Positions 3,710 to 56,730 of a DNA stretch of 64,000 bases are shown here, piece by piece. Position 1 is the stretch's first letter; every line of letters begins with the position of its first letter. The position numbers were made by a program, and so were the translations under genes. Source of the DNA: Sedimentisphaera salicampi (lineage in GTDB: Bacteria; Planctomycetota; Phycisphaerae; Sedimentisphaerales; Sedimentisphaeraceae); the NCBI RefSeq assembly GCF_002117005.1, contig NZ_CP021023.1, positions 2,280,995 to 2,344,994 of the forward strand. Direction: 5' to 3'. The notes below the pieces were generated by a model. The model did no database searches. It was not told the DNA's origin and saw only the letters and a program-made list of their open reading frames with translations.

Positions 3710-4020
3710 TATAGCTTTCTCTGCGTACTGCTGTCCACTTATTCCGTCCCGCCTGCGGCGGGCCTACATGCGTGGCTCGGTTTAAATATCTCGTATCGTG
3801 AAATCGCTGCGTAATACTAACGACAATCAGAGCCGTGCGTGGAGGTCCGCCGGAGGCGGAGCGGAACAAGCGGATAGATTTGTGGCGAGTGACAGAGCTG
3901 CAAGTCCGCCTGCGGCGGATTGCTCGTGGCAAAATCATTAGTGAAAAATTAGCGGGGATTAGCGGCTGAAAACATCTCTCTCATATTTTTAACCTCTCCC
4001 CTCTGTGCCCCTCTGTGAGA
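3710..4020 (+). repeat. REP/BIME-like intergenic repeat, complete unit (reference copy)
   Basis: The best copy of the repeat. In order: 'ctctgcgtactgctgtccac'; a GC palindrome CCCGCCTGCGGCGGG; 'catgcgtggctcggtttaaa'; a core ending 'taacgacaatcagagcc'; 'gtgcgtggaggtccgcc' with palindrome TCCGCCGGAGGCGGA; 'gaacaagcggatagattt'; a second short palindrome; 'ttagcggggattagcggctg'; and a 'cctctgtgcccctctgtgaga' end. The core is bounded by imperfect inverted ends (gcGTGGCTCgG and cAGAGCCrTGC). The IS110 insertion point is exactly at the right end. Confidence 0.85.
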
Positions 4021-4240: not shown

Positions 4241-4248
4241 AAGGATAA

Positions 4249-5232
<984 letters not shown>

Positions 5233-5257
5233 ATACTTGACTTTTAACACAGTCACT

Positions 5258-5577
5258 CCGTGGTTAATATATATCTTTCTCTGCGTACTGCTGTCCACTT
5301 ATTTCGCCCCGCCTGCGGCGGGCCTACATGCGTGGCTCGGTTTAAATATCTCGTTTTGTTAAGTTGCTGCGTATTACTAACGACAATCAGAGCCGTGCGT
5401 GGAGGTCCGCCGGAGGCGGAGCGGAACAAGCGGATAGATTTGTGGCGAGTGGCAGAGCTGCAAGTCCGCCTGCGGCGGATTGCTCGTGGCAAAATCATTA
5501 GAGAAAAATCAGCGGGGATTAGCGGCTGAAAACATCTCTCTCATATTTTTAACCTCTCCCCTCTGTGCCCCTCTCCG
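5258..5577 (+). repeat. REP/BIME-like intergenic repeat, right of IS110 copy 1
   Basis: Complete unit in the same order as the copy at 3710. It starts 'ccgtggttaatatatatc' directly after the IS110 CT core and ends 'cccctctgtgcccctc'. The core reads 'ctcggtttaaatatctcgtt'. Short reading frames across it are repeat shadows, not genes. Confidence 0.85.
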
Positions 5578-5897
5578 TGGTTAATATATATCTTTCTCTG
5601 CGTACTGCTGTCCACTTATTCCGTCCCGCCTGCGGCGGGTCTTCATGCGTGGCTCGGTTTAAATATCTCGTTTTGTGAAGTCGCTGCGTAATACTAACGA
5701 CAATCAGAGCCGTGCGTGGAGGTCCGCCGGAGGCGGAGCGGAACAAGCGGATAGATTTGTGGCGAGTGGCAGAGCTGCAAGTTCGCCTGCGGCGGATTGC
5801 TCGTGGCAAAATCATTAGAGAAAAATCAGCGGGGATTAGCGGCTGAAAACATCTCTCTCATATTTTTAACCTCTCCCCTCTGTGCCCCTCTGTGAGA
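5578..5897 (+). repeat. REP/BIME-like intergenic repeat, tandem copy with an uninterrupted left junction
   Basis: Follows the previous unit head to tail. The junction 'gtgcccctctccgtggttaa' shows what an empty IS110 target looks like. The right end is 'ctctgtgaga', where the left stub of IS110 copy 2 begins. Confidence 0.85.
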
Positions 5898-11927: not shown

Positions 11928-12037
11928 ATTGAAATTCGGGTGAACATATATTTATATGAAAGCCTCGCCGGCTGTCAAAGCAAATTGACTGCATAGAATA
12001 GCAAAAAACAAAAAAGTTGTCATTTTGTTATAAAAAT

Positions 12038-13545
12038 CACAGCCATCCCATAGAAGAACAAAATATAAGATGTTTCTTTGAAAATAGCGGGGTATGAGTT
12101 ACACTAATTTCAACAAACTAACCAAAAATTAGGAGTAACTCATGACACCCGCTAAGCATCAATATACAGTTCTCAAGCAGATATGCCAATATATTCCTGC
12201 TTATCTTGTTTCAAAATTATCCCGGCTTTACGGTATTGACAAGCAATCACGAACATTTTCTTGCTGGTCTCACATTGTATCTATGCTTCATGTCCAGATT
12301 GCTCACAGCCTCTCGCTGAACGACGTTGCCGACACATTGCGTAATCATTCCGGAGCTTTGATTCCTATTCGCCGTGCAACCCCACCAAGCAGGAATGGGC
12401 TTTCTCATGCAAACAGGGTTCGAGATCCTCGTATGGCAGAGACTCTCTTCTGGGAGGTGCTGTCCCATATCCAAGCCCAGCATCCTAATTTTGGCAGAGG
12501 TCATAAATACTCCGGCCTTCCAAGGCGTTTTAAGAGAGCAATATATGCGGTTGATTCAACAACGATTCAGCTTGTAGCCAACTGTATTGACTGGGCTAAA
12601 CATCGCAGACGCAAAGCCGCTGCAAAGTGCCACATGCAGCTTAATCTCCAGACATTCCTGCCTCAATTTGCTATTGTAAAAGAAGCCTCAACCCATGATT
12701 CGACAGAGGCTTATCAGCTCTGTCAGAACCTTAAAAGCGGCGAAATAGCGGTTTTTGACAAGGCTTACGTGGATTTTAAGCATCTGGCTGATCTTGACAG
12801 GCGAGAATTATTCTGGGTTACCAGAGCCAAAGACAATATGAAATATCGTTTTGTTAAACAGAATACAGAACCAAAAGGTGATATCCAATACGATGCATTA
12901 ATTGAACTTGAAATGCCGAAAAGCTATGAGGCCTACCCGAAGCAGCTCCGTTTGGTTAAGGCTTATGTGGAAGTTAACGGCGAGAAAAAGCTTATGAAAT
13001 TTATCACTAACAATACTCAGTGGGCGCCGAGCAGTATCTGCGGCCTATATAAATGCCGATGGGGCATAGAGGTGTTTTTCAAGCAAATAAAGCAGACTTT
13101 GCAGCTAAGCGATTTCCTAGGGCATAGCCAAGAAGCGATTCTATGGCAAGTATGGACGGCAATGCTTGCTTATATTTTAATACGGTATATAGGTTTCCTC
13201 GGCAAATGGAAAGGAACATTCAGTCGATTGTTTACTTTGCTGAGGGGTGTATTATTCAGCCGGCTGGATGTTTTTAGCGTTATGGCTGCCTGTGGGTCAG
13301 CACGTGGTTCACCGCGTATGGTTGCAAGCCCTCAGCAGGCTTATTTGCCAGGTTTTAATATGTAGCAAGATTTTACGCAAAGAAAGAGGTGAAAAAAGAG
13401 TGGGCAGTATTGAGCAAAAAACTGACAATTGAACAATAGCCAAAAAAATGCAAACTGGGGTGATTGAAATCCTTCAGGAAAAGGGCGTTTTAATACAATA
13501 AACAAGCCCTCAACGATAAATCTATGGACCTATGGGATGGCTGTG
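12038..13545 (+). mobile_element. IS4-family insertion sequence, full copy
   Basis: 1,508 bp with terminal inverted repeats CACAGCCATCCCATAG (12038) and CTATGGGATGGCTGTG (ending 13545). It holds one intact transposase gene. The region after the gene (13366-13545) is element sequence with nothing else visible. The immediate flanks do not match each other. The right flank instead matches the left flank of the fragment at 5941. Confidence 0.88.
12142..13365 (+). CDS. IS4 family transposase (DUF4372 type)
   Basis: 407-aa DDE transposase. The N-terminal ~75 residues match the DUF4372-type start (KQICQYIPAYLVSKL...SCWSHIVSMLHVQIAHSLSLND). The catalytic core has YAVDSTTIQL (first Asp, about residue 139), IAVFDKAYVDF (second Asp, about 207) and the C-terminal YKCRWGIEVFFKQIKQTLQ (YREK-like Glu, about 310). 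It is intact, with a TTAGGAG ribosome site just upstream. It can in principle mobilise the whole 5941-13545 unit, because the outer ends at both sides carry its terminal sequence. Confidence 0.95.
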   Translation: MTPAKHQYTVLKQICQYIPAYLVSKLSRLYGIDKQSRTFSCWSHIVSMLHVQIAHSLSLNDVADTLRNHSGALIPIRRATPPSRNGLSHANRVRDPRMAETLFWEVLSHIQAQHPNFGRGHKYSGLPRRFKRAIYAVDSTTIQLVANCIDWAKHRRRKAAAKCHMQLNLQTFLPQFAIVKEASTHDSTEAYQLCQNLKSGEIAVFDKAYVDFKHLADLDRRELFWVTRAKDNMKYRFVKQNTEPKGDIQYDALIELEMPKSYEAYPKQLRLVKAYVEVNGEKKLMKFITNNTQWAPSSICGLYKCRWGIEVFFKQIKQTLQLSDFLGHSQEAILWQVWTAMLAYILIRYIGFLGKWKGTFSRLFTLLRGVLFSRLDVFSVMAACGSARGSPRMVASPQQAYLPGFNM

Positions 13546-14761: not shown

Positions 14762-15060
14762 CCGTGGTTAATATATATCTTTCTCTGCGTACTGCTGTCC
14801 ACTTATTCCGTCCCGCCTGCGGCGGGCCTACATGCGTGGCTCGGTTTAAATATCTCGTTTTGTTAAGTTGCTGCGTATTACTAACGACAATCAGAGCCGT
14901 GCGTGGAGGTCCGCCGGAGGCGGAGCGGAACAAGCGGATAGATTTGTGGCGAGTGACAGAGCTGCAAGTCCGCCTGCGGCGGATTGCTCGTGGCAAAATC
15001 ATTAGTGAAAAATTAGCGGGGATTAGCGGCTAATAAATATCGCATAAAAAAATCTCCGTG
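14762..15060 (+). repeat. REP/BIME-like intergenic repeat, right of IS110 copy 2
   Basis: Complete unit in the same orientation as 3710-4020, entered directly from the IS110 right end. It ends in a 'ctccgtgtaatctgtggatc' type tract. From 15061 to 15180 there is AT-rich sequence with a small hairpin (CTCAGC-tttttgct region) but no gene. Confidence 0.85.
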
Positions 15061-17856: not shown

Positions 17857-18075
17857 GCCACGAGCAATCCGCCGCAGGCGGACTTGCAGCTCTGCCACTT
17901 GCCACGAATCTATCCGCGTGTTTTCCGCCTCGGGCGGACAGGCTCTCCGCCTTCGGCGGACTCCACGTGCGGCTCTGATTGTCATTAGTATTACGCAGCG
18001 ACTTCACGATACTAATATTTAAACCGAGCCACGCATGTAGTCCGCCGCAGGCGGGACGGAATAAGTGGACAAAAG
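17857..18075 (-). repeat. REP/BIME-like intergenic repeat (minus orientation)
   Basis: Complete unit read on the minus strand, with palindromes and core as in 3710-4020. The stretch 17657-17856 between the terminator and this unit holds no recognisable gene. Confidence 0.85.
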
Positions 18076-18096
18076 GACGCAGAGGAAATATATAAT

Positions 18097-18270
18097 CCAC
18101 AGATTACACAGATTGCACAGAGGGGAGATGTTTTTTTGACGGGATTTACAGCCCCAAACCGCTTTGGCTTCGGGGCAAGGATTCACAGGATAAATATTAA
18201 ATAAGGAAAAGGCGGAGAGGAATTTTTCAGCCGCTGATTCACACTGATTTTTCACTAATGATTTTGCTAC
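18097..18270. repeat. Long dispersed repeat, copy 1 ('gatttacagccccraaccgc')
   Basis: About 170 bp from 'gcacagaggggagatgtttt' through 'gatttacagcccc', 'ggggcaaggatt' and 'ggaaaaggcggagag' to 'cagccgctgattcacactga'. A closely similar stretch occurs at 56405-56570 and a partial one at 57960-58030. It contains the imperfect hairpin GCCCC…GGGGC. No coding potential. Confidence 0.75.
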
Positions 18271-18545
18271 GAGCCACGAATCTATCCGCGTGTTCTCCGC
18301 CTCCGGCGGACAGGCTCTCTGCCTTCGGCGGACTCCACGTGCGGCTCTGATTGTCATTAGTACTACGCAGCGACTTCACGATACGAAATATTTAAACCGA
18401 GCCACGCATGTAGGCCCGCCGCAGGCGGACTCCACGTGCGGCTCTGATTGTCGTTAGTATTACGCAGCGACTTCACGATACTAATATTTAAACCGAGCCA
18501 CGCATGTAGGCCCGCCGCAGGCGGGACGGAATAAGTGGATATCAT
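18271..18545 (-). repeat. REP/BIME-like intergenic repeat, partial tandem pair (minus orientation)
   Basis: Two successive cores ('gctctgattgtcattagtac…' and 'gctctgattgtcgttagtat…'), each ending 'aaccgagccacgcatgtagg', share the GC palindromes between them. This is a tandem head-to-tail arrangement like a mosaic BIME. Confidence 0.85.
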
Positions 18546-18661
18546 AAAATAGAAATAAGAGCAGTAGGCATAAGTTTTTTGCGCAGAGTTTTCAAGCAGC
18601 CTTGGGCTCTTTGATTGGTTTACCCCTGCAGGCAACACGCTGCTTGGTTTAAATATTCGAA

Positions 18662-19186
18662 TCACCGCAAGCTTTTATTATGATACACAGACATTGGAAC
18701 ACCCTGTTCATACAAAACATACTTGATAGCGTCGTATATGTGTTCAGTTTTCCATATATATTTAGTGCTGCCGTGCCTTGTCCATATTTTAAGATTTTGC
18801 ATCTCAGGGTAAGACTTGCGGAGTAATCTTGTGGCTTTTGATTTTATCTCTGTCATCATTCTTTCCGGTTTCTGCTTACCCGAAACTACAATATGCAGAT
18901 GTTCAGAGCGAACATGAGCCGCCATTAGATTCCATTCCCTCTCAGCGCATATATCGACAATAGACTTCAGAGCAATATCTCTCTGGCAGGGATTAAGGGT
19001 AACCTTTCTTTGCTGCATATTTTTTCTTATAGTATTCACTCGAAACTCATTCTCCGGCAGATAAGGTTGTCCGAACTTATTATGCTTTCTGTCAACACTT
19101 CCATTGCTCCTGCCATGCAATCGAGTTCCATAAGTTGAGAAGGTTATTAGAAAGCCTGCAGGCCAATATATATGCTCATATACCAT
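18662..19186 (-). CDS. REP-associated tyrosine transposase-like protein (Y1/HUH family)
   Basis: 174-aa single-strand DNA transposase-like protein. It starts like RAYT/Y1_Tnp members (WPAGFLITFSTYGTRLHGR), carries the HUH motif in RSEHLHIVVSG (HLH, about residue 100), and has the C-terminal helix YDAIKYVLYEQG whose tyrosine(s) are candidate nucleophiles. RAYT proteins cut REP palindromes and are thought to spread them. Here the gene sits between blocks of GC-rich palindromic repeats (17857-18545 and 19285-19385), the expected arrangement. No Shine-Dalgarno sequence is visible before the ATG at 19186. It lacks the terminal structures of a classical IS200/IS605 element. Activity is not proven. 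Confidence 0.8.
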   Translation of the reverse strand: MVYEHIYWPAGFLITFSTYGTRLHGRSNGSVDRKHNKFGQPYLPENEFRVNTIRKNMQQRKVTLNPCQRDIALKSIVDICAEREWNLMAAHVRSEHLHIVVSGKQKPERMMTEIKSKATRLLRKSYPEMQNLKIWTRHGSTKYIWKTEHIYDAIKYVLYEQGVPMSVYHNKSLR

Positions 19187-19244
19187 ACTGAAATTTTATC
19201 ACTAAAATAACCTGATACAATATAAAATTTTAAACGTCAATCAG

Positions 19245-19385
19245 AGGTGTGCGACAATATTTTTTGCAAAGCTTTTTAAAGCCGAATCTATCCGCGTGTT
19301 CTCCGCCTCCGGCGGACTCCACGTGCGGCTCTGATTGTCATTAGTATTACGCAGCGATTTCACAAAACGAGATATTTAAACCCGC
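19245..19385 (-). repeat. REP/BIME-like repeat with TGTGCGACA motif, upstream of the RAYT gene
   Basis: Begins 'ggtgtgcgacaatatttttt' and 'aagccgaatctatccg', then the core in minus orientation. It lies 60 bp beyond the start of the RAYT gene. The remaining gene-free sequence to 19579 is AT-rich and includes a 'tccgtgtaatcagtggatta' phrase. Confidence 0.8.
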
Positions 19386-19579
19386 GCCCCACTTGCTGCT
19401 CGCCACAGGCCACAAAAAATCTGTGCAATCCGTGTAATCAGTGGATTATATCTGAAATCTTTGCGAAAAAATTTAATATTTTTTTCGATTTGTCTTGATT
19501 TTTCTTCACAATCAAATTTAATCGATTAAAATGTTTCTCTATGCAGTTACGCATTACTCTTTATTGAAAGGTTTTTGTT

Positions 19580-19753
19580 ATGTATATGGGTATTGAAAGC
19601 GGCTTCGTATTTACAGGTTACATCCTGTGCATTGCCAGTGCCGTTCTGTGTGTGGTTTACGGGCTCTTAAACTGGAACAAGGGCAGCGAAAAGGTTGACA
19701 TCGAAGATGTTAAATGGGCAGACAAAGAGAAGGATGTGGAAAAAGAATTTTAG
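19580..19753 (+). CDS. Symporter small accessory protein, orphan
   Basis: 57-aa protein read directly: it starts MYMGIESGFVFTGYILCIAS, has one transmembrane helix (about residues 9-31, ending CVVYGLLNW), then a charged tail with NWNKGSEKVDIEDVKWADK. The LCIxSxxLCVVYGLxNWNxG pattern matches the small accessory protein normally encoded just before sodium:solute symporters, where it is presumed to aid the transporter. AAAGG ribosome site 7 nt before the ATG. No symporter follows: the next gene, 66 bp on, encodes an outer-membrane barrel. Either its partner is elsewhere or it has been separated by rearrangement. Recognition is from memory of the family motif. Confidence 0.72.
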   Translation: MYMGIESGFVFTGYILCIASAVLCVVYGLLNWNKGSEKVDIEDVKWADKEKDVEKEF

Positions 19754-19819
19754 CGTTTTTTCTATTTTAGTTGATCATGCAAACTGTTAGTTATTTTAAT
19801 TGCAATTGAGAGGAAAGTT

Positions 19820-21175
19820 ATGAAAAGGTTAGTTTTAATTCTTGTGCTGTGCGCATTTCTCCCGAAATTTCCGGCAAGCGCAGAAAATTCACTTCTTGAA
19901 ACGCTCAAAAATCCTGTAGAAGGTATGGAGCTCTACGGCGATTTCCGATACCGCAGGGTTTACGGCGAAGAGTGGTATCTAAACAATGCCGCTAAAGACG
20001 GGCATCAGAATTACGACAGGATCCGTGCCCGCCTCGGAGCAAAACACCAGTTTACCGATGAGATTGGCGTGGATTTCAGGATGGTTCAGGAGCTGTGGTG
20101 CTTCGACGATCCTGAATACAAAGACAATTCCGTTGATTTTGATGAGGCCATTATAGACCGCTTGAACGTAAAGCTGGATAATTTCCTTGATATGCCCGTT
20201 ACAGCGGTTTTAGGTCGTCAGGATATCATACTGAGCAAATGGCTCGTTTTAGACGGCACACCTCTTGACGGTTCAAGAACGATTTTCTTTGATGCCGCCA
20301 GATTCACAGTGGATATGGATGAGGGCAGAACGCTGGACCTCGTTTACACTCAGAACTACGCAAGGGCATCAAAAACGCTCGAGCCCTTCAGCGAGCAGGC
20401 AGACCGCCGGCTCACTCAGAACGATGAGCAGGGCGTAATTATGTACTATACAGACAAATCGCAGGAGGCCTTCAGCTGGGAAGCATACTTTATGCTCAAG
20501 GAAGACGATGTGGCGGAAATTGCCCCAAGGTATAATCCGGACTGGAGCAGGGAATCAGAGATCTATACCTTCGGCGGTGCGTTTAACGGCGGGATCAATG
20601 ATAATATGAGCTACCGCCTTGAAGCCGCTGTTCAGACAGGCGAGAAGGCGATTGATTCCAGCTCAGCCCCCCAAGACCTTGAGGCATTCGGAACGCTGAA
20701 CAGCCTCTGCTACTCGTTCAACGACGAGATGAACAATATGCTCACGCTCGAATATGAGTATCTCTCAGGCGATAATCCTTCCACAGACGACAACGAGGGC
20801 TTCGACCCGCTCTGGGGCGAATGGCCGAGATATTCTGAGATGTACGTTTACACTCAGGCTCTCGAAGGCTCGCTTGCAGACCATACCAACCTGCACAGGG
20901 TTGGGCTTACCCACAAATTCGACCCTGCCGAGAAAACTAAATGGACAAACGCATTCCATCTGCTCTGGGCTGCTCAGGACAGGCAGGGGGCTCAATATGG
21001 CGGAGACAGCGATGTATTCCGCGGCCAGCTCCTAACGAGCGTTTTGAGGCACAGAATCTCAAAACAGTTCTCAACTCGGCTCAACGCTGAATATTTCATC
21101 CCGGGCAATTACTACGATGAGGCTTGGCAAAATGAATCTCTCTTTTTGAGGGCGGAAGTGGTTTACTCATTCTAA
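19820..21175 (+). CDS. Alginate-export-like outer-membrane beta-barrel
   Basis: 451 aa. Signal peptide at residues 1-21 (LVLILVLCAFLPKFPASA). The mature protein has the AlgE/alginate-export pattern: LYGDFRYRRVYG, DRIRARLGAKHQFTDEIGVDFRMVQ, LGRQDIILSKWLVLDGTPLDGSRT and many alternating amphipathic strands to a C-terminal aromatic residue (RAEVVYSF). It probably forms a porin-like channel for anionic oligosaccharides or other small solutes. No alginate biosynthesis genes are present, so uptake or general porin function is as likely as export. GAGAGGAAAG ribosome site; intrinsic terminator after the stop. Confidence 0.82.
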   Translation: MKRLVLILVLCAFLPKFPASAENSLLETLKNPVEGMELYGDFRYRRVYGEEWYLNNAAKDGHQNYDRIRARLGAKHQFTDEIGVDFRMVQELWCFDDPEYKDNSVDFDEAIIDRLNVKLDNFLDMPVTAVLGRQDIILSKWLVLDGTPLDGSRTIFFDAARFTVDMDEGRTLDLVYTQNYARASKTLEPFSEQADRRLTQNDEQGVIMYYTDKSQEAFSWEAYFMLKEDDVAEIAPRYNPDWSRESEIYTFGGAFNGGINDNMSYRLEAAVQTGEKAIDSSSAPQDLEAFGTLNSLCYSFNDEMNNMLTLEYEYLSGDNPSTDDNEGFDPLWGEWPRYSEMYVYTQALEGSLADHTNLHRVGLTHKFDPAEKTKWTNAFHLLWAAQDRQGAQYGGDSDVFRGQLLTSVLRHRISKQFSTRLNAEYFIPGNYYDEAWQNESLFLRAEVVYSF

Positions 21176-21202
21176 GAAAAGAGTAAAATAATAGACTACC
21201 GC

Positions 21203-21235
21203 AGCCTGTTGTGCTTGAGCATAGCAGGCTTTTTT
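21203..21235 (+). terminator. Intrinsic terminator after the alginate-export-like gene
   Basis: AGCCTGTTGTGC/GCATAGCAGGCT stem with a TTGA loop and six T residues. Confidence 0.9.
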
Positions 21236-21257
21236 AGTGTTTTTCGGAAAAGAATTT

Positions 21258-22166
21258 ATGTGGATAACGCTTGGAATATTAAGCTCGCTTTTTCTCGGCC
21301 TATACGATCTGAGCAAAAAGCACTCGCTGCAGGATAATGCCGTTCTGCCGGTGCTGTTTCTCTCCACCCTCTCAGGGCTTATTGTCGTTCTGCCGTTTCT
21401 GTTTGTCTCGAGAGCTGCTCCAAGCCTTCTGGATGATACCATCCTCTATATCGCTCCCCTGAGCATCAAGAGCCATCTTATCATATCAGCAAAGAGTTTC
21501 ATCGTGGCCGGCAGCTGGGTTTTCGGATACTACGCCCTCAAGCACCTGCCGATATCCATCGTTGCCCCCATAAGGGCCACCTCGCCTTTCTGGGTGCTGA
21601 TAGGGGCTGTGCTGATATTTGGAGAATCGCCAAACCTGATTCAGCTTTCTGGGGTGATAATAATCATCGTTTCTTTCTACTGCTTCTCTGTTCTGGGCAG
21701 GCTGGAGGGGATACATTTCGAGAAAAACCGCTGGATTATTTTCACTCTAATAGCAATGGGGCTCGGTATTTGCAGCGGGCTTTACGATAAATACCTTATC
21801 TCCCGTGCGGGATATTCTCCGATAGCCGTTCAGCTCTGGTTCACGTTCTATATGGTGCTGATTTTCGGCCTGCTGAATATATTCCTCTGGTATCCATCGC
21901 GCAAACAGACTACGCCTTTCCGCTGGAGCATAAGCATAGTGCTGATTGGGGTGTTTCTTATCCTTGCAGACTTCGCCTACTTCACCTCGCTGAGCATTGA
22001 AGGCTCTCTGCTGACGATCCTTGCTGCTCTTAGAAGGGCAAGTGTTTTGTTTGTGTTTACGATTGGAGCGATTATATTTAAGGAAGTGAATAAAGGCAAA
22101 AAGGCATACGCCCTGATTGGCGTTGTTGCCGGCGTGATGTTAATACTATTCGGTTCAAATGGGTAA
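21258..22166 (+). CDS. EamA-family (DMT) transporter
   Basis: About ten transmembrane helices in two EamA repeats: residues 1-130, with YYALKHLPISIVAPIRATSPFWVLIGAVLIFGE, and residues 150-300, with DFAYFTSLSIEGSLLTILAALRRASVLFVF. Drug/metabolite transporters of this type export or import small metabolites; the substrate is not predictable. The ATG at 21258 with GGAAAAG upstream is preferred over a GTG at 21237 that overlaps the preceding terminator. The last codons overlap the maf start by 8 nt, indicating translational coupling. Confidence 0.88.
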   Translation: MWITLGILSSLFLGLYDLSKKHSLQDNAVLPVLFLSTLSGLIVVLPFLFVSRAAPSLLDDTILYIAPLSIKSHLIISAKSFIVAGSWVFGYYALKHLPISIVAPIRATSPFWVLIGAVLIFGESPNLIQLSGVIIIIVSFYCFSVLGRLEGIHFEKNRWIIFTLIAMGLGICSGLYDKYLISRAGYSPIAVQLWFTFYMVLIFGLLNIFLWYPSRKQTTPFRWSISIVLIGVFLILADFAYFTSLSIEGSLLTILAALRRASVLFVFTIGAIIFKEVNKGKKAYALIGVVAGVMLILFGSNG

Positions 22167-22773
22167 AACTATGAGCGGGAATAAATTTATACTCGCATCC
22201 GCCTCGCCGAGGCGTAAAGAACTGCTTGAGCAGGCTGGATATATATTTGATATTGTGCCTTCAGGTGTGGATGAAGAGAGCTTCAAACGCGCAGGCCTGA
22301 GCCCCACGGGCTACACAGAAAAGCTCGCAGAGGCCAAAGCAAAGGTGGTGGCGGAGGATTATCCGAGCATCCCCGTTCTCGGTTCAGACTGCATCGTAGA
22401 GCTGGGCGGCGAGATTTTCGAAAAGCCCCAAGATGAAAAAGATGCGGAGCGAATTATCAAAACGCTTTTCAGCAGTCCGCATTATGTTATCACTTCTGTT
22501 GCGCTTGTGCTGAAGGCGAAAGGGGAGCAAAGCGTTCAAACAGCCGTTACAAAAATCCATCCGGCAAGGCTTACCACCGAGCAGATAGCCCACCATATCA
22601 GCACCGGTAGATGGCAGGGTAGAGCAGGAGGCTACGGCGTGCAAGATCCGCATACCGAGGAATATATCGAGAAGATTGAAGGCAGCTTTACGAATGTCGT
22701 GGGACTGCCGATGGAGCTCACCAGCGAGATGCTGAAGGATTTCGGCATCACTCCCGAGCTTCAGGAGAATTAG
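22159..22773 (+). CDS. maf: Maf-like nucleoside triphosphate pyrophosphatase
   Basis: 204 aa. Hydrolyses (modified) nucleoside triphosphates, dTTP or UTP in characterised members, to monophosphates and pyrophosphate, as a housecleaning enzyme. Family motifs: FILASASPRRKELLEQAGY at the N-terminus, VLGSDCIVEL (catalytic Asp), the EKPQDEKDAERII helix and the C-terminal GRAGGYGVQD. The length is normal. The start at 22159 overlaps the EamA gene; an internal ATG at 22171 (MSGNKF) is also possible. It is followed after 17 bp by a hypothetical gene with an AAGGAG site, so the three genes form an operon. Confidence 0.93.
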   Translation: MGKTMSGNKFILASASPRRKELLEQAGYIFDIVPSGVDEESFKRAGLSPTGYTEKLAEAKAKVVAEDYPSIPVLGSDCIVELGGEIFEKPQDEKDAERIIKTLFSSPHYVITSVALVLKAKGEQSVQTAVTKIHPARLTTEQIAHHISTGRWQGRAGGYGVQDPHTEEYIEKIEGSFTNVVGLPMELTSEMLKDFGITPELQEN

Positions 22774-22790
22774 ATTAAGGAGTTTTTATT

Positions 22791-23348
22791 ATGTATGAAT
22801 CACCTTGGATTCTGATAATTGTTTCGGCAGCTGTCTTTGTGGCGGTATCGCTGTTCAGGATGTTTATGCCTGAGAAAAAGGCTTGGCATCAGCTTCTGAT
22901 TCCCGTTGTTATCTTTGCCTCCGCTTTCATTGTTGATCTTTCCGTCGAGACAGACAGAGAGGCTATAAGCTCTGTAATCAGCGATACGAAGGAGGCTGTT
23001 GTAACCCGTGATATAGAGCTGCTCAAATCAGTTGTATCCAAAGATTACAGAGACCCCAGAAACGGAACGTATAACGGCCTTATATCGGTGTTTGAAAGAT
23101 TTTTCAAGAGCCCTTTCTTGCGAGATTTGGATCTGCGGGGTGTTGAGATCACGCACGGAAAATCCAAGGGCAGCGTATCGGCTGCCGCCTTCTGCAAATT
23201 CGATCCGCAAAGCGAATATTCTTCTTATGCAGGTGTGGTGATTGTGGAAGGAAAGGCCAATCTGGAAAAGCAGGGCGGGCAGTGGAAGATTGTAAACGTG
23301 GATATAGACACAGTAAACAATCAGGACGTAAGCAATTTAGGCTTTTGA
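22791..23348 (+). CDS. Hypothetical membrane protein with an NTF2-like domain
   Basis: 185 aa, not a named family that I recognise. Two N-terminal transmembrane helices (residues 5-25 and 36-53). The soluble C-terminal part (about 55-180) begins REAISSVISDTKEAVVTRDIELLKSVVSKDYRD, a pattern typical of SnoaL/NTF2-like folds, and ends in QGGQWKIVNVDID. Similar two-domain proteins are common in Phycisphaerae. AAGGAG ribosome site. It is the last gene of the EamA-maf unit, and its 3' end overlaps the convergent gene by 12 bp. Role unknown. Confidence 0.75.
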   Translation: MYESPWILIIVSAAVFVAVSLFRMFMPEKKAWHQLLIPVVIFASAFIVDLSVETDREAISSVISDTKEAVVTRDIELLKSVVSKDYRDPRNGTYNGLISVFERFFKSPFLRDLDLRGVEITHGKSKGSVSAAAFCKFDPQSEYSSYAGVVIVEGKANLEKQGGQWKIVNVDIDTVNNQDVSNLGF

Positions 23349-23681
23349 GACCGGTTCAAGCAGGTAGTTTTCGTCCTCAGCGGGGCTTATGCGGAAAATC
23401 CCGCTTAATATCCTGCCCTCAAACCTGAAATTTTCGTTGCTGAGCGGGGTGCATTCTCCCTCGTCCGCTCTGGCTGCATAGCCCTTGCCCTTATTTACAG
23501 GCCCTTCGTAGGTGAGGAATTTCTTGTCGTGGTCTTTGATTTTAGCGATCGTTCTGGCTCTCTGGCCTAAATCGCCGAGCTCTTCTAAGCGGTACGTCTC
23601 GAGATGGTCCTTCCTTTCGAGCATAAGATCGAAATGGTCATTAGTGTACGGGCATTTATGCTCAATAAGTACAAATCTCAT
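23337..23681 (-). CDS. LigD 3'-phosphoesterase-like small protein
   Basis: 114 aa. Resembles the stand-alone planctomycete version of the phosphoesterase domain at the N-terminus of DNA ligase D: RFVLIEHKCPYTNDHFDLMLERKDHLETYRL (HxDLMLE motif), then LTYEGPVNKGKGYA and FRFEGRILSGIFRI. The domain in LigD trims 3'-phosphates and ribonucleotides during end joining. The small proteins are uncharacterised, so activity is an inference. The start overlaps the end of fetB-like by 4 nt (ATGA), making it the terminal gene of the minus-strand operon hydE-ribF-fetA-fetB. Confidence 0.7.
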   Translation of the reverse strand: MRFVLIEHKCPYTNDHFDLMLERKDHLETYRLEELGDLGQRARTIAKIKDHDKKFLTYEGPVNKGKGYAARADEGECTPLSNENFRFEGRILSGIFRISPAEDENYLLEPVSKA

Positions 23682-24481
23682 TTATCAGGCTCTTTCAATA
23701 CGTCCGGCTTGAGGTTATCGAACTTGTCAAACGTTGTAAGGGTGGTCAGTTTCAGGTTCAGATAGCCGGTGAAGGTCATAGTAATGAATATCGCAATCAT
23801 TATAGCAATCTGATACTTAATCGCAGTCATCGGCATTGAACCTCCGAGGATCTGGCCTGTCATAACCCCAGGAAGCGATACAATCCCCACCGTAGCAATC
23901 ACCGTAACCGTTGGTATCAGCGATGCCCTGAGAGCCTCGGCCATAAACGGTTTCATCGCCTCGTTTCGCGTTGCTCCCATCAAGAGATAACTCGAATAGA
24001 GCTTTCTGCTCTCTTCCATTTTTGTGTAGAACCGCTCAAGCACGAGCACATTCCCCCGCATAGAGTTCCCCAGTATCATACCGGTAAGCGGGATGAAATA
24101 CCTCGCATCGTAGAAAGGCTCCGGCCTTACCACAAGCACAATCAGAAACGAGGCTACTGTAATCGTGGAAATCGCTATCCCCGCAAGCACGGGCAGGAAG
24201 AAGTATTTTTTCCGCAGGCCGGCGTTTGATGTAACGCTCAGATTGGCCGCAAGGAGCATCACCATAAGCCATGCCGTATTGAGCAGGAAATTATTGAACA
24301 GGAATATATACTTCAAAAAAATCCCAACGAGAAGAAGCTGGCCGGTCATACGCAATATCGCAATAACCACCCTTTTGGTGAGCCCGAGCTTATAGCGGAC
24401 TATTATCGCAAGCGATGGAATAAGCAGGGCATACATAAAAATGAGCTTCCAGATTCCGATCTCTATCGCTCCGCCGTTCAT
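23678..24481 (-). CDS. ABC transporter permease, FetB/UPF0014 family
   Basis: 267 aa with six or seven transmembrane helices. It carries the UPF0014 signature: MILGNSMRGNVLVLERFYTKMEE, LLMGATRNEAMKPFMAEALRASLIPTV and GIVSLPGVMTGQILGGSMPMTAIKYQI. In E. coli FetAB exports iron and protects against peroxide; the same role is plausible here. It is encoded 1 bp after the ATPase gene. The size is normal. Confidence 0.88.
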   Translation of the reverse strand: MNGGAIEIGIWKLIFMYALLIPSLAIIVRYKLGLTKRVVIAILRMTGQLLLVGIFLKYIFLFNNFLLNTAWLMVMLLAANLSVTSNAGLRKKYFFLPVLAGIAISTITVASFLIVLVVRPEPFYDARYFIPLTGMILGNSMRGNVLVLERFYTKMEESRKLYSSYLLMGATRNEAMKPFMAEALRASLIPTVTVIATVGIVSLPGVMTGQILGGSMPMTAIKYQIAIMIAIFITMTFTGYLNLKLTTLTTFDKFDNLKPDVLKEPDK

Positions 24482-24482
24482 A

Positions 24483-25112
24483 TCAGGCCAGCCTCCCTTC
24501 TTTCATTGTGAGCTTTTCATCGCAGAAGCCGATCCAGTCCGGATCGTGGCTTACTGAAAGAACGGTATATTCATTCTCGTCCAAAAGACTCAGCAGCCTT
24601 TCCTTGCTTTCGGGGTCTAAGGCTGAGGTGGGCTCGTCCAGCAGAAGAACGTCTTTCTCAAGAAGGATCGCCCTTATTAGTGCAATTCTTTGCTTCTCTC
24701 CGCCTGAAATGAGTTTATTTTTCTTCAGGAGGATCGATTTGTCCAGCGCCAGTTTCTCAGCAAGCTGCTCCACTTTCTCCTGCGGGGGCTTTTTATCTTT
24801 GTTTGCCTTGAAGTCAAACGGCTTAAGCACCGCTTCGAGAGCTGTAGTGTTTCCGAGCTCCGGCTCCTGAGATACAAATCCGATCTTCCTTCTCAATTTG
24901 CCTACCGAGAAATGATCAATCTTTTCCCCTTCAAAGAAAATCTCTCCATCAAAGGCTGGGAGAATGCCTGCAATTGCCATAAGAAGAGATGTTTTCCCCG
25001 AGCCGGATGCCCCCGAGATTACATAACGCCTTCCCTTCTCGAAAGTGAAGCTTACGTTATCGAGGATCAAGGTGTCGGCGTTTTTTGCTGTAATATTTTT
25101 CAGCTCAATCAT
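24483..25112 (-). CDS. ABC transporter ATP-binding protein, FetA-like
   Basis: 209 aa, a single ABC ATPase. Walker A GASGSGKTSL (about residues 35-44), Q-loop GFVSQEPEL, signature ISGGEKQRIALIRAIL, Walker B VLLLDEPTSALDPES and the switch His in VLSVSHDPDW. With the adjacent FetB-like permease it probably forms a two-component metal exporter at the inner membrane. The ATG overlaps the 3' end of ribF by 8 nt, so translation is coupled. Confidence 0.9.
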   Translation of the reverse strand: MIELKNITAKNADTLILDNVSFTFEKGRRYVISGASGSGKTSLLMAIAGILPAFDGEIFFEGEKIDHFSVGKLRRKIGFVSQEPELGNTTALEAVLKPFDFKANKDKKPPQEKVEQLAEKLALDKSILLKKNKLISGGEKQRIALIRAILLEKDVLLLDEPTSALDPESKERLLSLLDENEYTVLSVSHDPDWIGFCDEKLTMKEGRLA

Positions 25113-26112
25113 TGTATAGGCTCATTTTCTTTTCGGTGAGGATCGATTCTGCCTGACGGCAGTCTAAGCTTATCTGCTCTGAGAGTTTGTCCTTATCCGG
25201 GAAAACCCTCTGCTCTCGCAGCTTTGCGATAAAGTCCATAGCCATCCATCTGCCTACAAGTCCTTTTTCAAGCGTTTTGCTTTCTCTGAGCAGATGTGCT
25301 TCGGTGAGCGTTGGGTTGCCGTCTTCAAAAGTCCTTGCCCGCCCAATGCTGTAAACTGCGGGTTCAAGCTTCTGCTTGTCTATCCGGCATACCTCCTCGC
25401 GGCTTTCTCCAATCTGCACAAACCCTGCGTAAACCCCGTCTGAGGGGCGGATTTGGATCTTTGGGTTTATGTTAGCTGTAGGGAAGCCGATCTGTCTTCC
25501 GATTCCTCGCCCGCACACAACCTCTCCAATAAGGCGATAAGGGCGCCATAGAGCAGAGGCTGCATCTTCAACAAACCCATTCTCGAGAAAATCTCTTATC
25601 AGTGAGCTTGATACCCTTCGCCTGCCTACCGAGAATTCAAGCTCGGCAAGCTCTTCGCAGCAGGCCTTGAAGCCGTGGACTTCGCCGAGTTTTTTCAGTG
25701 TTTCTATATCGCCGCTCCTTGAGTATCCGAAGCGGAAGTCGCAGCCTTCCACTATCGCTGCCGGATTGAATCTGCCGGCAAGAAAGTCCTTAGCAAATTC
25801 CTCCGGCGGCATATTCAAAAGCTTTGTGCTGTCTGTAATCACGGCAAGCTCATCAACCCCTGCCTTTTCCAGCAGGTTCACCTTCATCTCAAGAGGCGTG
25901 ATTATCTTAGGGGCCTTCTCGGGCTTGAGAAGGTAAACAGGGTGCGGCTCAAATGTTACAGCTGTAATCTTCTCTGTTCCTAATTCTTTTGCCGCCTCAA
26001 GGCATTTATTTATTATGTGTCTGTGGCCTCTGTGGATGCCGTCGAAATTGCCTATAGTGAGAATGCTTTTCGCTTTAGACTGGAAGCTTTCATCAACCTT
26101 AAAAACCTTCAT
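25105..26112 (-). CDS. ribF: Bifunctional riboflavin kinase/FAD synthetase
   Basis: Makes FMN from riboflavin and FAD from FMN. The N-terminal nucleotidyltransferase domain has TIGNFDGIHRGHRHII, a family variant of GxFDGxHxGH, and VEGCDFRFGYSRSGD. After the linker RRVSSSLIRDFLENG comes the C-terminal kinase domain with RGIGRQIGFPTANI and DGVYAGFVQIG. The start at 26112 (MKVFKVDE) is chosen because its ATG overlaps the hydE stop as ATGA; an upstream in-frame start lies inside hydE. The C-terminal ~40 residues extend slightly beyond the usual domain. Cofactor supply next to hydE is notable. Confidence 0.93.
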   Translation of the reverse strand: MKVFKVDESFQSKAKSILTIGNFDGIHRGHRHIINKCLEAAKELGTEKITAVTFEPHPVYLLKPEKAPKIITPLEMKVNLLEKAGVDELAVITDSTKLLNMPPEEFAKDFLAGRFNPAAIVEGCDFRFGYSRSGDIETLKKLGEVHGFKACCEELAELEFSVGRRRVSSSLIRDFLENGFVEDAASALWRPYRLIGEVVCGRGIGRQIGFPTANINPKIQIRPSDGVYAGFVQIGESREEVCRIDKQKLEPAVYSIGRARTFEDGNPTLTEAHLLRESKTLEKGLVGRWMAMDFIAKLREQRVFPDKDKLSEQISLDCRQAESILTEKKMSLYND

Positions 26113-27164
26113 TGCTGATACTCCCATTTCAATGTATGCCCGTGTGATAGATCCACAAGCCTTCCCGTTTCATCTGCGAGCTGCCTTACAGTGTCCACGG
26201 GATCCACCCCAGCCTCTGTAACGCATTTTTTGCCCGGATATATCTCATAGAGCTTCTTTACGTTTCCCGGGGTGAAGTTCGGCATTATCACATTAGCCCC
26301 AGACCTGAGGGCATCGAGCCTGTGGTCGCGGTCTGAGAAACTTGCGGTAGCCGTGGTTGCGGGCAGGTGTGTGTTTTTTGTAACGATTCGCGTAAGGGCG
26401 AGCATTTTCATCGTCATATCAAGGCTGCCGATTTTCTCTTCCCCAAGCTCAGTTTGTTTATGCGGTATGAAGAGCCCCATTCCGAGCATATCAAACCCGT
26501 ATTTATTGAAGAATATGATGTCTCTTGCGAGTATTTGAGGGGTTTGTCCTTTCAGCCCCACAAGAGTTCCGCTGCCGGCCTGATAGCCGAGGTCTATCAA
26601 ATCCTCAAGGCATCGGATCCTTTGTTCATAGCTCATATCAGGATGATACTTTTCATAAAGCTTTTTGTCTGATGTTTCAATCTTCAATAGATACCTGTCT
26701 GCGCCGGCGTCCTTCCAGAGTTTGTAAACCTCTCTCTCCCATTCTCCTGAGGAAAGTGTTACGGCAGCCCCGAATCTTTTCTTTATTTCGCTTACGATAT
26801 CAGCTATAAAGTCCGGGCTTATATCAGGGTCTTCACCGCCCTGAAGGACAACGGTTTTTACGCCGCATTTGTGAATAATCTCTGCCGATTCGAGTATCTC
26901 GTTTTTATCAAGCCGGTACCGCTGTATAGAGTGGTTGTTTTTGTTCAGCCCGCAGTACAGGCAAGTGTTTCGGCAGTAGTTTGTGTATTCGATTATGCCC
27001 CGCACGAGGATTCCGTCCCCGCAATACTCCCGCCTCACCTCATCAGCAGCTCTGAAGATCTTCTGCATTTCAGTTTTATCTTCCACTGCCAGAAGTTCGG
27101 CAAGATCATTTTCCTGAGGGGTTTGAGTTTTTATCTTTTCTATTAAGCTGTCTATCTTTTCCAT
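26109..27164 (-). CDS. hydE: [FeFe]-hydrogenase maturase HydE (radical SAM)
   Basis: 351 aa. Radical SAM enzyme that helps build the dithiolate-bridged 2Fe subcluster of [FeFe] hydrogenase. Cluster motif YCRNTCLYCGL (Cys64, 68, 71; CxxxCxxC), then VLQGGEDPDISP, LKIETSDKKLYEKYHP, GSGTLVGLKGQT and GLFIPHKQTEL, all HydE-like; BioB and PylB are the alternatives. hydF, hydG and hydrogenase genes are absent from the window, so either they are encoded elsewhere or the protein has another role. It leads the hydE-ribF-fetA-fetB-phosphoesterase operon, whose members mostly overlap. Upstream (27165-27179) is only 15 bp from the rhomboid stop. Confidence 0.88.
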   Translation of the reverse strand: MEKIDSLIEKIKTQTPQENDLAELLAVEDKTEMQKIFRAADEVRREYCGDGILVRGIIEYTNYCRNTCLYCGLNKNNHSIQRYRLDKNEILESAEIIHKCGVKTVVLQGGEDPDISPDFIADIVSEIKKRFGAAVTLSSGEWEREVYKLWKDAGADRYLLKIETSDKKLYEKYHPDMSYEQRIRCLEDLIDLGYQAGSGTLVGLKGQTPQILARDIIFFNKYGFDMLGMGLFIPHKQTELGEEKIGSLDMTMKMLALTRIVTKNTHLPATTATASFSDRDHRLDALRSGANVIMPNFTPGNVKKLYEIYPGKKCVTEAGVDPVDTVRQLADETGRLVDLSHGHTLKWEYQQ

Positions 27165-27179
27165 TTTATGCCTTCGGGG

Positions 27180-28352
27180 CTAAAGCTTCTTTTTAATCTT
27201 TTTGAGTTCATTGCCGCACATCTTTTTCTGCTCCGGTTCGGTGAGCTTTTTATATGCCTTTTCTAATTGTTTGGCAGCATTTTCAGGTTCATTGAGGTAT
27301 CTGGAGTATAGAAGGCCGAGCATAAGTTCAATATGTTCGATGTATTCGTAGCTTGGGTAGTTCGCTTTGAAAATCTTATACGCCTTTTCGGCCTGTTCCG
27401 CTTTGCCCCTGCCCATCAGATTGTTTGCTATATCAAGCTGCTCTCTTTCCGGCAGCACGGTATTCTCTCTGTTCATAAGGCTTACGTACTGATCTGCTGC
27501 GTCCTTTATTTTGCCAACAGCGACAAGTTTGCAAATCTGCTGTTCTTTTTCATTAAGCCCGCTTTTATCTCCAGCGGTGTTACCGCTTACCTGCTCTGCT
27601 GCGGGCATACCTTTAGACGCCTGCATTTGATACTGAACGGAGTTTTTCAGGGCTCTGCCCCTTTTCCACCGCTTTATCATATAATGAAAATCTATACCTT
27701 CGCTCTTGAGCAGTCTGGTGATAAGCATTAAGCCTGTGATCACTACTCCGAAGGCGTATCCGGAAAGATGCGCATCATAGGCAACTTTCGAATTAACATA
27801 ATTGGCCGGTATTACATTGTCAATCAGAACCATTTTCACAATGATAAACCAGAATGCTGGTATTGGGAAGGTGTAAAAGAAAACCAGCCAACCCATCAGC
27901 GTAATGTTGCTCCGCGGGTACAGGATCAGGTATGCGCCTGTAACCGCTGCTACAGCTCCGGACGCTCCGAGCATGGCGGTCTCATGCAGGTATGAATAGC
28001 CCAGTGCTGCGAATATCGCTCCGGAGATAAAAAAGCAAAGATAGCCTATATGTCCGAGCCGGTCGTTTATCTTGTTCCCGAATAGAAAAAGGAAAAACAT
28101 ATTTCCTGCTATATGAACTATATTTGAATGCAGAAAAGCATAGGTTATAAACTGCCATACCTTAGGCTGATCTGAATGAAGCACGAATGTGTCTGCCCAG
28201 GGCTTCAGCGGTTCAACAAACGTTTTATACCCGTACTTCACCTCCACAGGGGAGTATGTGGCCAGAAACACTGCAATGCAAACCGCTATGAGGAAATAGT
28301 TCATAAGCGGCGGCTTTGTTATCCTTACATCTGTTTTTATAGGTATAAACAT
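27180..28352 (-). CDS. Rhomboid intramembrane serine protease with C-terminal helical repeats
   Basis: 390 aa. Residues 15-225 are a six- or seven-helix rhomboid domain, with HSNIVHIAGNMFFLFLFG (oxyanion Asn84 region), catalytic Ser131 in LGASGAVAAVTG and catalytic His195 in AYDAHLSGYAFG. The GxSG motif and His are intact, so it is probably active. Residues 265-390 form a cytoplasmic tail with TPR-like helices (IADNLMGRGKAEQAEKAYKIF type). Rhomboids cleave membrane protein segments; substrates are unknown. It lies on the same strand as and just upstream of hydE, so may share its transcript. Confidence 0.92.
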   Translation of the reverse strand: MFIPIKTDVRITKPPLMNYFLIAVCIAVFLATYSPVEVKYGYKTFVEPLKPWADTFVLHSDQPKVWQFITYAFLHSNIVHIAGNMFFLFLFGNKINDRLGHIGYLCFFISGAIFAALGYSYLHETAMLGASGAVAAVTGAYLILYPRSNITLMGWLVFFYTFPIPAFWFIIVKMVLIDNVIPANYVNSKVAYDAHLSGYAFGVVITGLMLITRLLKSEGIDFHYMIKRWKRGRALKNSVQYQMQASKGMPAAEQVSGNTAGDKSGLNEKEQQICKLVAVGKIKDAADQYVSLMNRENTVLPEREQLDIANNLMGRGKAEQAEKAYKIFKANYPSYEYIEHIELMLGLLYSRYLNEPENAAKQLEKAYKKLTEPEQKKMCGNELKKIKKKL

Positions 28353-28534
28353 TTTCTGCTTCTTTTATAACCGAGTTTAGGGAAAACATTCTATTACCCC
28401 CGCCTTCTGTTACAAGTGATTTCTCCGCAAAACTCCCATTCCGGCCCCTGCTGCGCAAGCCTGTTCAAACACATTTTCAGCGAAAGATAAAGCTGGCTGA
28501 AAGACGGCCGTTTTAATTCAATCGGCAGGGCGGA

Positions 28535-29680: not shown

Positions 29681-29683
29681 ATT

Positions 29684-32502: not shown

Positions 32503-32520
32503 TTCACACACACAGCTTTG

Positions 32521-32778: not shown

Positions 32779-32823
32779 AAACGAATCCCCGGTCCGAGTT
32801 TCAAATAAGTTAAGTTTAACCCT

Positions 32824-32852: not shown

Positions 32853-32945
32853 ATATTGGAAGGGTAAATATTGGCAAAAAATGAAAATTTTAATGTGAAA
32901 AGTGAAAGCAAATGGAAAAATTTTTAATTTTTTTGGAAATTTTTC

Positions 32946-32973: not shown

Positions 32974-32982
32974 CTAATATTG

Positions 32983-37904: not shown

Positions 37905-38095
37905 GGTGTGCGACAATATTTTTTGGCAAAGCTTTTTAAAGCCGAATCTATCCGCTTGCTCCCGTCCGCCTTCGGCGGACTCCACGCACGGCTCTGATTA
38001 TCGTTAGTATTAGGCGGCGATTAAACGATACGAAATATTTAAACTGAGCCACGCATGAAGGCCCGCCGCAGGCGGGACGCTCGCGATGGTTCGCC
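37905..38095 (-). repeat. REP/BIME-like repeat with TGTGCGACA motif (minus orientation)
   Basis: Starts 'ggtgtgcgacaatatttttt', then 'aagccgaatctatccgcttg', palindromes and a core ('gctctgattatcgttagtat' to 'aaactgagccacgcatgaag'). The core orientation relative to its flanks is the normal one. Confidence 0.85.
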
Positions 38096-38147
38096 CCTGC
38101 TCGCCAACAAAACCCGCAGACAAAAAATACTTAGCGAGTTTCCGGAT

Positions 38148-38224
38148 AATATAGACAGCAATAAATTCTGCAAAGCATTGCAGCATGATGATTTGCATTT
38201 TGCTCAGAAAAATTGTCGCACACA
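38148..38224 (+). repeat. Second dispersed repeat family (~75 bp), copy 1
   Basis: 'atagacagcaataaattctgcaaagcattgcagcatgatgatttgcatttt…gtcgcacaca' recurs at 40033-40112 (minus) and 58138-58213 (plus). It contains the short palindrome TGCAAAGCATTGCA and ends in the TGTGCGACA motif. Non-coding. Confidence 0.8.
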
Positions 38225-40032: not shown

Positions 40033-40112
40033 CGGTGTGCGACAATATTTTTTGGCAAAATGCAAATCATTATGCTGCAATGCTTTGTAGAATTTATTCC
40101 TATCTATATTAC
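40033..40112 (-). repeat. Second dispersed repeat family, copy 2
   Basis: Reads as the reverse complement of 38148-38224, from the 'gtgtgcgacaatattttttg' end to 'aatttattcctatctatatt'. Confidence 0.8.
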
Positions 40113-40450
40113 TGAGCCAGTCCGCCTGCGGCGGAAAACTCGCTAAGGATTTTTTGTTTGCTGGTTTTGTTGGCAAGTAGAGGCGAACCTGCGCGATCGT
40201 CTTGCCTGCGAAGCGTGAAAATTCGGCGGAAAAAACTTATACCTATTGCTTCTCATTGCCTTTTGTCCACTTATTTCGTCCGCCGTAGGCGGACTTCATG
40301 CGTGGCTCTGATTGTCGTTAGTATTCCGCAGCGATTTTACAAAGCGAACCATTTAAACCGAGCCGCACGTGGAGGCCCGCCGTAGGCGGGCCGGAACAAG
40401 CGGATAGATTCAGCTTTAAAAAGCTTTGCCCAAAAAAATTGTCGCACACC
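40113..40450 (+). repeat. REP/BIME-like repeat with inverted core
   Basis: The outer parts run in plus order ('tgtccacttatttcgtccgcc' on the left, 'ggaacaagcggatagattc' on the right). The core between the inverted ends (40297-40372) reads 'ggctctgattgtcgttagta…atttaaaccgagcc', the reverse of its orientation in other plus-oriented units. It ends with 'aaaaaaattgtcgcacacct'. No gene in 39927-40556. Confidence 0.8.
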
Positions 40451-52089: not shown

Positions 52090-52330
52090 ATTATTAGTGA
52101 AAAATCAGCGCAAATTTGCGAGTGGACGAGGTGGACTCGGTCAGCGGAGTGATAGGAGCAAAAAAAATTTCTTTTGTCCACTTATTCCGTCCCGCCTACG
52201 GCGGGCCTTCATGCGTGGCTCGGTTTTCGTTAGTTTTTCGCAAAGTTTTGCGCAGCGAAGGGTTAATCAGAGCTGTGTGTGGAGGTCTGACGCAGGCGGA
52301 GAGCAAACGGATAGATGCGGCTTTAGAAAG
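52090..52330 (+). repeat. REP/BIME-like repeat, degenerate copy
   Basis: 'tgtccacttattccgtcccg', palindrome, 'cttcatgcgtggctcggttt', a diverged core and 'tcagagctgtgtgtggaggt'. 51933-52089 carries a 'cacggattacacggattttg' phrase. No gene in 51933-52488. Confidence 0.75.
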
Positions 52331-54829: not shown

Positions 54830-55164
54830 CAAGCCCCAATCTATCCGATTGCTTTCCGCCTCCGGCGCACTCCACGTGCGGCTCTGATTGTCGTTAGTAT
54901 TTCGCAGCGATTTCACAAAACGAGATATTTAAACTGAGCCACTTGCCACTCTGCCACGAGCTACGAATCTATCCGCTTGCTCCGTCCGCCTTCGGCGGAC
55001 TCCACGTGCGGCTCTGATTGTCGTTAGTATTTCGCAGCGATTTCACAAAACGAGATATTTAAACCGAGCTACGCTTAAAGGCCCGCCGCAGGCGGAGAGC
55101 CTGTCCGCCGAAGGCGGAAAATAAGTGGACAGCAGTACGCAGAGAAAAGATATATTGACCACGG
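54830..55164 (-). repeat. REP/BIME-like repeat, tandem pair (minus orientation), left of IS110 copy 3
   Basis: Two successive cores ('gctctgattgtcgttagtat…aaacgagatatttaaac') with palindromes. The outer end 'gtccacttatt…ccgcctt' leads to 'ccacggagtgactgtg', the IS110 right junction read on the minus strand. Confidence 0.85.
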
Positions 55165-56570: not shown

Positions 56571-56730
56571 CGAGCCACGAATCTATCCGCTTGCTCCGTC
56601 CGCCTTCGGCGGACTCCACGCACGGCTCTGATTGTCGTTAGTATTACGCAGCGATTTCACAAAACGAGATATTTAAACCGAGCCACGCATGTAGGCCCGC
56701 CGCAGGCGGGGCGGAATAAGTGGACAGCAG
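56571..56730 (-). repeat. REP/BIME-like repeat (minus orientation)
   Basis: Complete core 'gctctgattgtcgttagtat…aaaccgagccacgcatgtag' with flanking palindromes, ending 'ggcggaataagtggacagca'. Confidence 0.85.

Follow-up and report, generated by a model that had tools for sequence, protein, structure and literature searches.

A class 3 TnpA_Y1 gene of Sedimentisphaera salicampi and a family of paired palindromes, part of which lies within small inverted-repeat elements

The Y1 gene and the repeats around it

The window analysed here is a stretch of 64 kb (genome 2280995-2344994) from the single 3.19-Mb contig of Sedimentisphaera salicampi. It contains an intact open reading frame for a 174-aa protein with a Y1_Tnp domain (Pfam; 37.4 bits, E 3e-9), referred to below as the RAYT. 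As an initial annotation of the region had described, this protein has an HLH motif and its gene sits among palindromic repeats, which lie on both sides and include a tandem pair (Table 1). The repeats are REPINs, in which two inverted hairpin arms with a CnGA foot surround a core of ~46 bp. The window holds 11 complete REPIN pairs and three half-units, so the "about fifteen places" counted initially were roughly right. The unit of ~300 bp reported at the same time proved to be a single sub-family, present four times in the window (3709, 5269, 5586 and 14773); the conserved unit is the inverted pair of ~145-165 bp.

Table 1. Features of the window (coordinates count from its first nucleotide).
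Position	Strand	Feature	Evidence or remark
3733..3877	-	REPIN	
5293..5437	-	REPIN	
5610..5754	-	REPIN	
14797..14941	-	REPIN	
17910..18071	+	REPIN, 3' side of the RAYT	
18282..18540	+	Two REPINs in tandem with a hybrid middle hairpin in common, 3' side of the RAYT	
18642..18656	-	Right half of the REPIN core, ATATTTAAACCAAGC, just downstream of the RAYT stop codon	
18662..19186	-	Class 3 TnpA_Y1 (RAYT-like) gene, intact ORF, 174 aa	Pfam Y1_Tnp, motifs, AlphaFold/Foldseek
19233..19246	-	Left half of the REPIN core, CTCTGATTGACGTT, including the complement of the CAGA foot, upstream of the RAYT	
19247..19268	+	Lone TIR (GTGTGCGACAATATTTTTTGCA) of the element with 8-bp target duplications; abuts the core half on the RAYT side, partner end missing	
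about 19288..19381	+	Truncated REPIN (left arm and core; right arm lost), 5' side of the RAYT	
37906..38223	+	318-bp TIR element with a REPIN inside	8-bp target duplication AAGCACAG on both sides
40035..40449	+	415-bp TIR element with a swapped-arm REPIN	8-bp target duplication CTGCCTCG on both sides
52176..52325	-	Degenerate REPIN	Pair at genome position 2333201
54845..55130	+	REPIN cluster, two partial units	
56587..56725	+	Near-consensus REPIN	Served as DNA query

The HUH, W and Y motifs of the protein read RSEHLHIVV, WTRHGST and YVLYEQG, and the patterns RSxHxH, WTxHGST and YVxxEQG are common to it and its aligned relatives. Class 3 TnpA_Y1 proteins have been described from Planctomycetes, Acidobacteria and Proteobacteria as ~178 aa long, with NHVH, W[TA] and YV[VI][AENY]EQ motifs and with associated hairpins that have a CnGA foot and reach up to ~600 copies in Solibacter (Quentin et al. 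2018, PMC6006769). The length of the 174-aa protein and its EHLH, WT and YVLYEQ strings agree with this description, with departures in the HuH motif (N to E and V to L) and in the Y motif (V/I to L). Arms with CAGA, CCGA or CTGA feet flank the gene on both sides. They are also abundant in the host, since a search of the 3.19-Mb genome with the head pattern returned 139 arm heads against one for a reversed-pattern control, far above chance. By its motifs, length and flanks, the predicted product belongs to the rare class 3 of TnpA_Y1.

The AlphaFold model of the protein (pLDDT 86) had as its top Foldseek match 4er8, the E. coli TnpA_REP bound to a REP hairpin, followed by the IS200/IS608/ISDra2 transposases, and structural comparison gave VIA Z values of 11-14 to both. 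The resemblance to TnpA_REP, together with the GTAG or GGAG found just 5' of the inner stem in many arms, favours the initial framing of the locus as a canonical RAYT of the gammaproteobacterial GTAG type with BIMEs. That framing nevertheless seems very nearly untenable. The protein scored 29.1 bits with NCBIfam REP_Tyr_transpos, far under the cut-off of 80, and its Y motif ends in EQ rather than NP. GTAG was also rejected as the foot, since the string at that place sits inside the arm and varies (GTAG, GAAG, GGAG, GAAT), whereas CnGA, instead of the GT[AG]G of canonical RAYTs (TnpA_REP, class 2), stands at the stem base. Membership in IS200/IS605, which is judged by a curated TnpA score and by multiple identical copies, is not indicated either, the score with NCBIfam transpos_IS200 being 33.2 bits (cut-off 55) and the class 3 gene being single-copy in the genome. 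The other Y1 gene of the genome (C1:1615218, ~685 kb away) was rejected as the mobiliser of the REPINs, as it is an IS200-type TnpA with no arm heads listed nearby.

Repeat architecture and the flanks of the gene

The arms follow the consensus CnGA-GCC...-YCCGCC-GNA-GGCGGR-...-GG, with CAGA, CCGA or CTGA directly 5' of each stem. In the window and 29 further loci, the feet were CCGA (21), CAGA (18) and CTGA (2) in a search that demanded a CnGA foot. When only the inner hairpin was searched for, 94 of 177 hairpins had a CnGA head; the remaining matches mostly had other upstream sequences, including GAGCCTG-headed and GAGCAA-headed kinds. The outer pair of the inner stem covaries among these 177 hairpins (T-A in 122, C-G in 38, mispaired in 17). 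Single arms folded better than shuffled sequences in three of four cases (z -2.5 to -3.05; fourth arm z -1.3). One long cruciform was rejected, since the whole REPIN folded no better than shuffles (z -0.45). Arm heads were spaced by 63-64 bp in 62 of the 64 inverted pairs, a near-constant distance as in REPINs; this count covers the fetched genome stretches that hold repeats, hence the genome has at least 64 REPINs. Their outer ends are constant across several unrelated contexts, and a mosaic of other repeats surrounds them.

The stems are swapped in some REPINs, with each foot staying with its core side (genome 764454, 1469468 and 1938595; window 40358). Such stem-exchanged REPINs are common among the copies bounded by terminal inverted repeats that are described below.

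Several other repeats were observed in the same intergenic regions. Copies of an IS110-like element directly adjoin REPIN clusters (window 4042-5235, 13546 onward and 55180-56390 on the minus strand), and its end sequence was found again beside several other REPINs in the genome. A further repeated element, probably an IS, occurs at 5926-6245 and 12023-12340 in copies 93-95% identical. An 80-bp tandem repeat (TGTGGGAGAAA..TTCCACACCCCCAACGTCTGAC) lies beside GACCGGTAGG-type repeats at 57180-57460, with similar stretches at other repeat loci. At 2250-2300, 3879-3923, 43616-43660 and elsewhere, the mosaics interleave REPINs with a second hairpin family (GCAATCCGCCGCAGGCGGACTTGCAG) and a CTAATCAGCGCTAATTTTTCACTAATGATTTTGCC repeat.

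Two strings that run inward from the feet in REPINs recur at the gene. CTCTGATTGACGTT occupies the interval 47-60 bp upstream of the RAYT start codon, and CGAATATTTAAACCAAGC begins within 2 bp after its stop. In the 64 kb, CTCTGATTGWCGTT and ATATTTAAACCRAGC (each with up to one mismatch) were found only in REPINs and once each beside the RAYT, where they keep their REPIN order and orientation. The alignment scores at the RAYT flanks were reached by 4 of 2000 dinucleotide shuffles on the left and by none of 2000 on the right, and swapped and reversed controls of the alignment were not significant. Only the outer stretches of the core, 14 and about 19 bp long, are matched; its central ~20-25 bp have no counterpart at the RAYT. 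The hairpins immediately at the gene are lost or degenerate, with a TIR end abutting one side and a weakly folding sequence (CCAAGCAGCG...) on the other.

Judged by these strings, the RAYT occupies the position of the REPIN core. Most simply, REPINs would be gene-less deletion derivatives of a RAYT-type element, or else the enzyme would impose a constraint on the sequence beside each foot; under either reading, gene and repeat would be tied together. Because the RAYT flanks match the inner ends of the paired palindromes, they suggest that this repeat is related to the RAYT's own element as a reduced form. The gene would lie between core halves in REPIN order also if REPINs came first and the Y1 gene inserted into one, or was captured by it, its flanks being the insertion site. 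We regard this sequence of events as quite improbable: a simple insertion should have left the middle of the core in place, and class 3 genes elsewhere also lie between CnGA hairpins. With a probability of roughly 0.7, we consider the locus to be a class 3 REPtron that has a REPIN family of its own.

Elements with terminal inverted repeats and the genus mate

A second layer of mobility is seen in elements of ~320-480 bp with terminal inverted repeats (TIRs) of ~22 bp. Compared with the genus mate G147, locus 2421008 has a 413-bp insertion (2420749-2421161) with the inverted repeats GTGTGCGACAATATTTTTTGGC at its ends and CGCTTTTT on both sides. The orthologous site in G147 is shorter and free of the insertion, giving a pair of occupied and empty sites. 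Among 16 TIR pairs, the 8-bp target duplication was exact in eight, matched in seven of the eight bases in one and was absent in seven; by chance, an 8-bp match is expected in one pair in about 65,000. TIRs combined with a target duplication of fixed length are the mark of DDE-type MITEs. Y1 enzymes (IS200/IS605) are not known to make such duplications, which points to a DDE-type transposase as the probable mover of the TIR elements and, with them, of the TIR-bounded part of the REPIN family. No pair among the 53 TIR ends in the genome was seen around a transposase ORF that could be an autonomous partner. TIR elements that contain no REPIN also exist.

The link between gene and repeat gains strength from the shared flanks; a DDE-type element bearing part of the family makes it less straightforward. 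The initial annotation had proposed that the RAYT mobilises or once mobilised the repeat. The gene-repeat link in this proposal is supported by the class 3 hairpins, the core halves and the scarcity of the repeat in G147, but given TIR elements with 8-bp duplications, mobilisation by the RAYT cannot hold for every copy. The REPINs might even be the cargo of the miniature element with TIR GTGTGCGACAATATTTTTTGGC and 8-bp duplication, with passive palindromes and the Y1 gene as a bystander. The duplications and the empty G147 site are as such an origin would have them, a TIR end directly abuts the RAYT side, and G147 has TIR elements and REPINs in the absence of a Y1 gene. Nevertheless, a complete TIR pair encloses 10 of the 64 REPINs and a single TIR lies within 600 bp of another 18, leaving 36 with no TIR within that distance; REPIN outer ends are also the same in several unrelated contexts. 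Moreover, outside REPINs the core halves flank the RAYT alone in the 64-kb window, and CnGA hairpins accompany class 3 genes across four or more phyla, at loci for which this TIR was not the criterion. An origin of the whole family as cargo therefore seems unlikely to us.

We propose instead that the single-copy enzyme, an HUH/Y1 single-strand DNA transposase, would recognise hairpins with a 5' CnGA foot. REPINs would be short derivatives of a gene-bearing element, having kept both arms and the sequence inside each foot and lost the gene, and the RAYT, or a close relative now lost, may have copied or moved them as single strands. Later, part of the REPIN family would have come to lie inside small elements with GTGTGCGACAAT... 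TIRs, whose insertion by an unlinked DDE-type transposase would have left the 8-bp duplications. That REPINs are gene-less class 3 Y1 derivatives subsequently captured by a DDE-type miniature transposon, so that two unrelated chemistries, single-strand HUH and double-strand DDE transposition, would have spread one family, is a proposition on which we find the balance even.

Copies next to the RAYT were expected to be the least diverged if it had spread them. This was not borne out: they differ from the consensus by 16-27%, against an overall median of 20%, and divergence shows no trend with distance from the RAYT (rho 0.15, p 0.25). Copies within 25 kb were somewhat less diverged (p 0.017), an effect that depends on the recent 300-bp family.

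No Y1 gene is present in the genus mate G147 (98% complete, one contig). In this single genome comparison REPINs are scarce in it, with three exact and five one-mismatch arm heads against 139 in S. salicampi, and the copies are diverged; exact arm heads were absent from the other genomes of the family. Related genomes with the same repeats and no RAYT had been named beforehand as evidence against mobilisation by the RAYT. G147 is a weak instance of this kind, since loss of the gene followed by decay of the repeats would fit its few diverged copies as well as irrelevance of the gene. A DNA search run without a positive control found no RAYT remnant in G147, G144, G145 or G146. Nor does G147 offer a clean empty site at the RAYT: an RNase D-like gene (named from its translation only) lies there, and collinearity ends at 19472.

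Window positions 19472-35778 are the sole long stretch collinear with an 80-kb region of G147 (85% identity), and the left end of this stretch coincides with the RAYT/REPIN cluster. At six other REPIN loci, the flanking sequences map to widely separated places in G147; REPINs may therefore mark the breakpoints of rearrangements.

Class 3 genes in other genomes and comparison with known systems

When 84,980 species genomes were scanned with an alignment of RAYT relatives, 80 class 3 loci were recovered, distributed over at least four phyla (Planctomycetota, Acidobacteria, Delta- and Gammaproteobacteria, and one Abditibacteriaceae). Among the 80 genes, 48 have a CnGA hairpin within 400 bp, 27 of them on both sides, and the density of these hairpins is 1.79 per kb near the genes vs 0.13 per kb further out; with a looser hairpin pattern, 62 of the 80 have one within 300 bp. 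Class 3, formerly known from few genes whose hairpins were recognised by eye, is here placed at 80 loci with a measured hairpin enrichment. Across 160 genomes of the order, hairpins of the canonical class 3 form are more numerous where a class 3 gene is present (Mann-Whitney p = 2.5e-4); they also occur in 54 of 139 order genomes in which no class 3 gene was detected, many of these assemblies being incomplete. In two relatives with class 3 genes, most CnGA hairpins appear to be single and unpaired, hence pairing is not a general class 3 feature. A general rule of hairpin orientation was rejected as well: at the 80 loci, the foot of the nearest hairpin points away from the gene in 80 of 112 cases, the reverse of the arrangement at the RAYT.

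In several genomes of the order (L034, L035, L039-L043, L051), class 3 genes appear placed between ribF-like and DHH phosphoesterase (nrnA-like) genes, a setting conserved in other order genomes and not found in S. salicampi (gene names from translation only). Several Legionella genomes (L174, L179, L191, L193, L196, L197) have class 3 genes accompanied by CCGAGCC-type hairpins, either on one side or on both. A second, more distant Y1 family (25-33% identity, e.g. L054-L061), in which an N-terminal TTYGTWLQGD motif is kept, is common in the order.

The TIR elements resemble bacterial DDE-type MITEs in length, TIRs and 8-bp target duplications, and differ from them in carrying a REPIN and in that no autonomous partner with the same TIR was seen among the 53 ends. 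Their nesting with REPINs illustrates that proximity and abundance are insufficient to name the transposase that spread a repeat. With TIRYT genes and their TIRtrons (Di Nocera et al. 2013, PMC3733652), the locus shares the linkage of a Y1 gene to dispersed inverted-repeat families. A TIRYT has the same long TIR on both sides of the gene, whereas here the TIRs flank small non-coding elements with 8-bp target duplications, and the one end beside the RAYT is one-sided and points away from it.

Class 3 REPtrons (PMC6006769) are matched in protein length, in the HuH, W and Y motifs, in the Planctomycetes host, and in the CnGA-footed flanking hairpins and their high copy number. Unlike in those systems, the hairpins are ~45 nt rather than ~25 nt long and have GNA triloops, and they form inverted pairs at fixed spacing, with core ends that also occur at the gene and with part of the family borne by TIR elements. 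As in the REPINs of Pseudomonas fluorescens SBW25 (PMC3116915), two inverted REPs stand at a fixed distance with a spacer, in many copies, in a genome with a single-copy Y1 gene; the S. salicampi family differs in its CnGA foot, its longer unit, its class 3 enzyme and the core ends shared with the gene flanks. The study of the SBW25 family proposed that REPINs arose from sequences flanking an IS200-like ancestor (Bertels and Rainey 2011, PMC3116915). The core ends that bracket the transposase gene in S. salicampi would be a concrete pair of parent and derivative, and the locus lends sequence support to an origin of REPINs from IS200-like ends.
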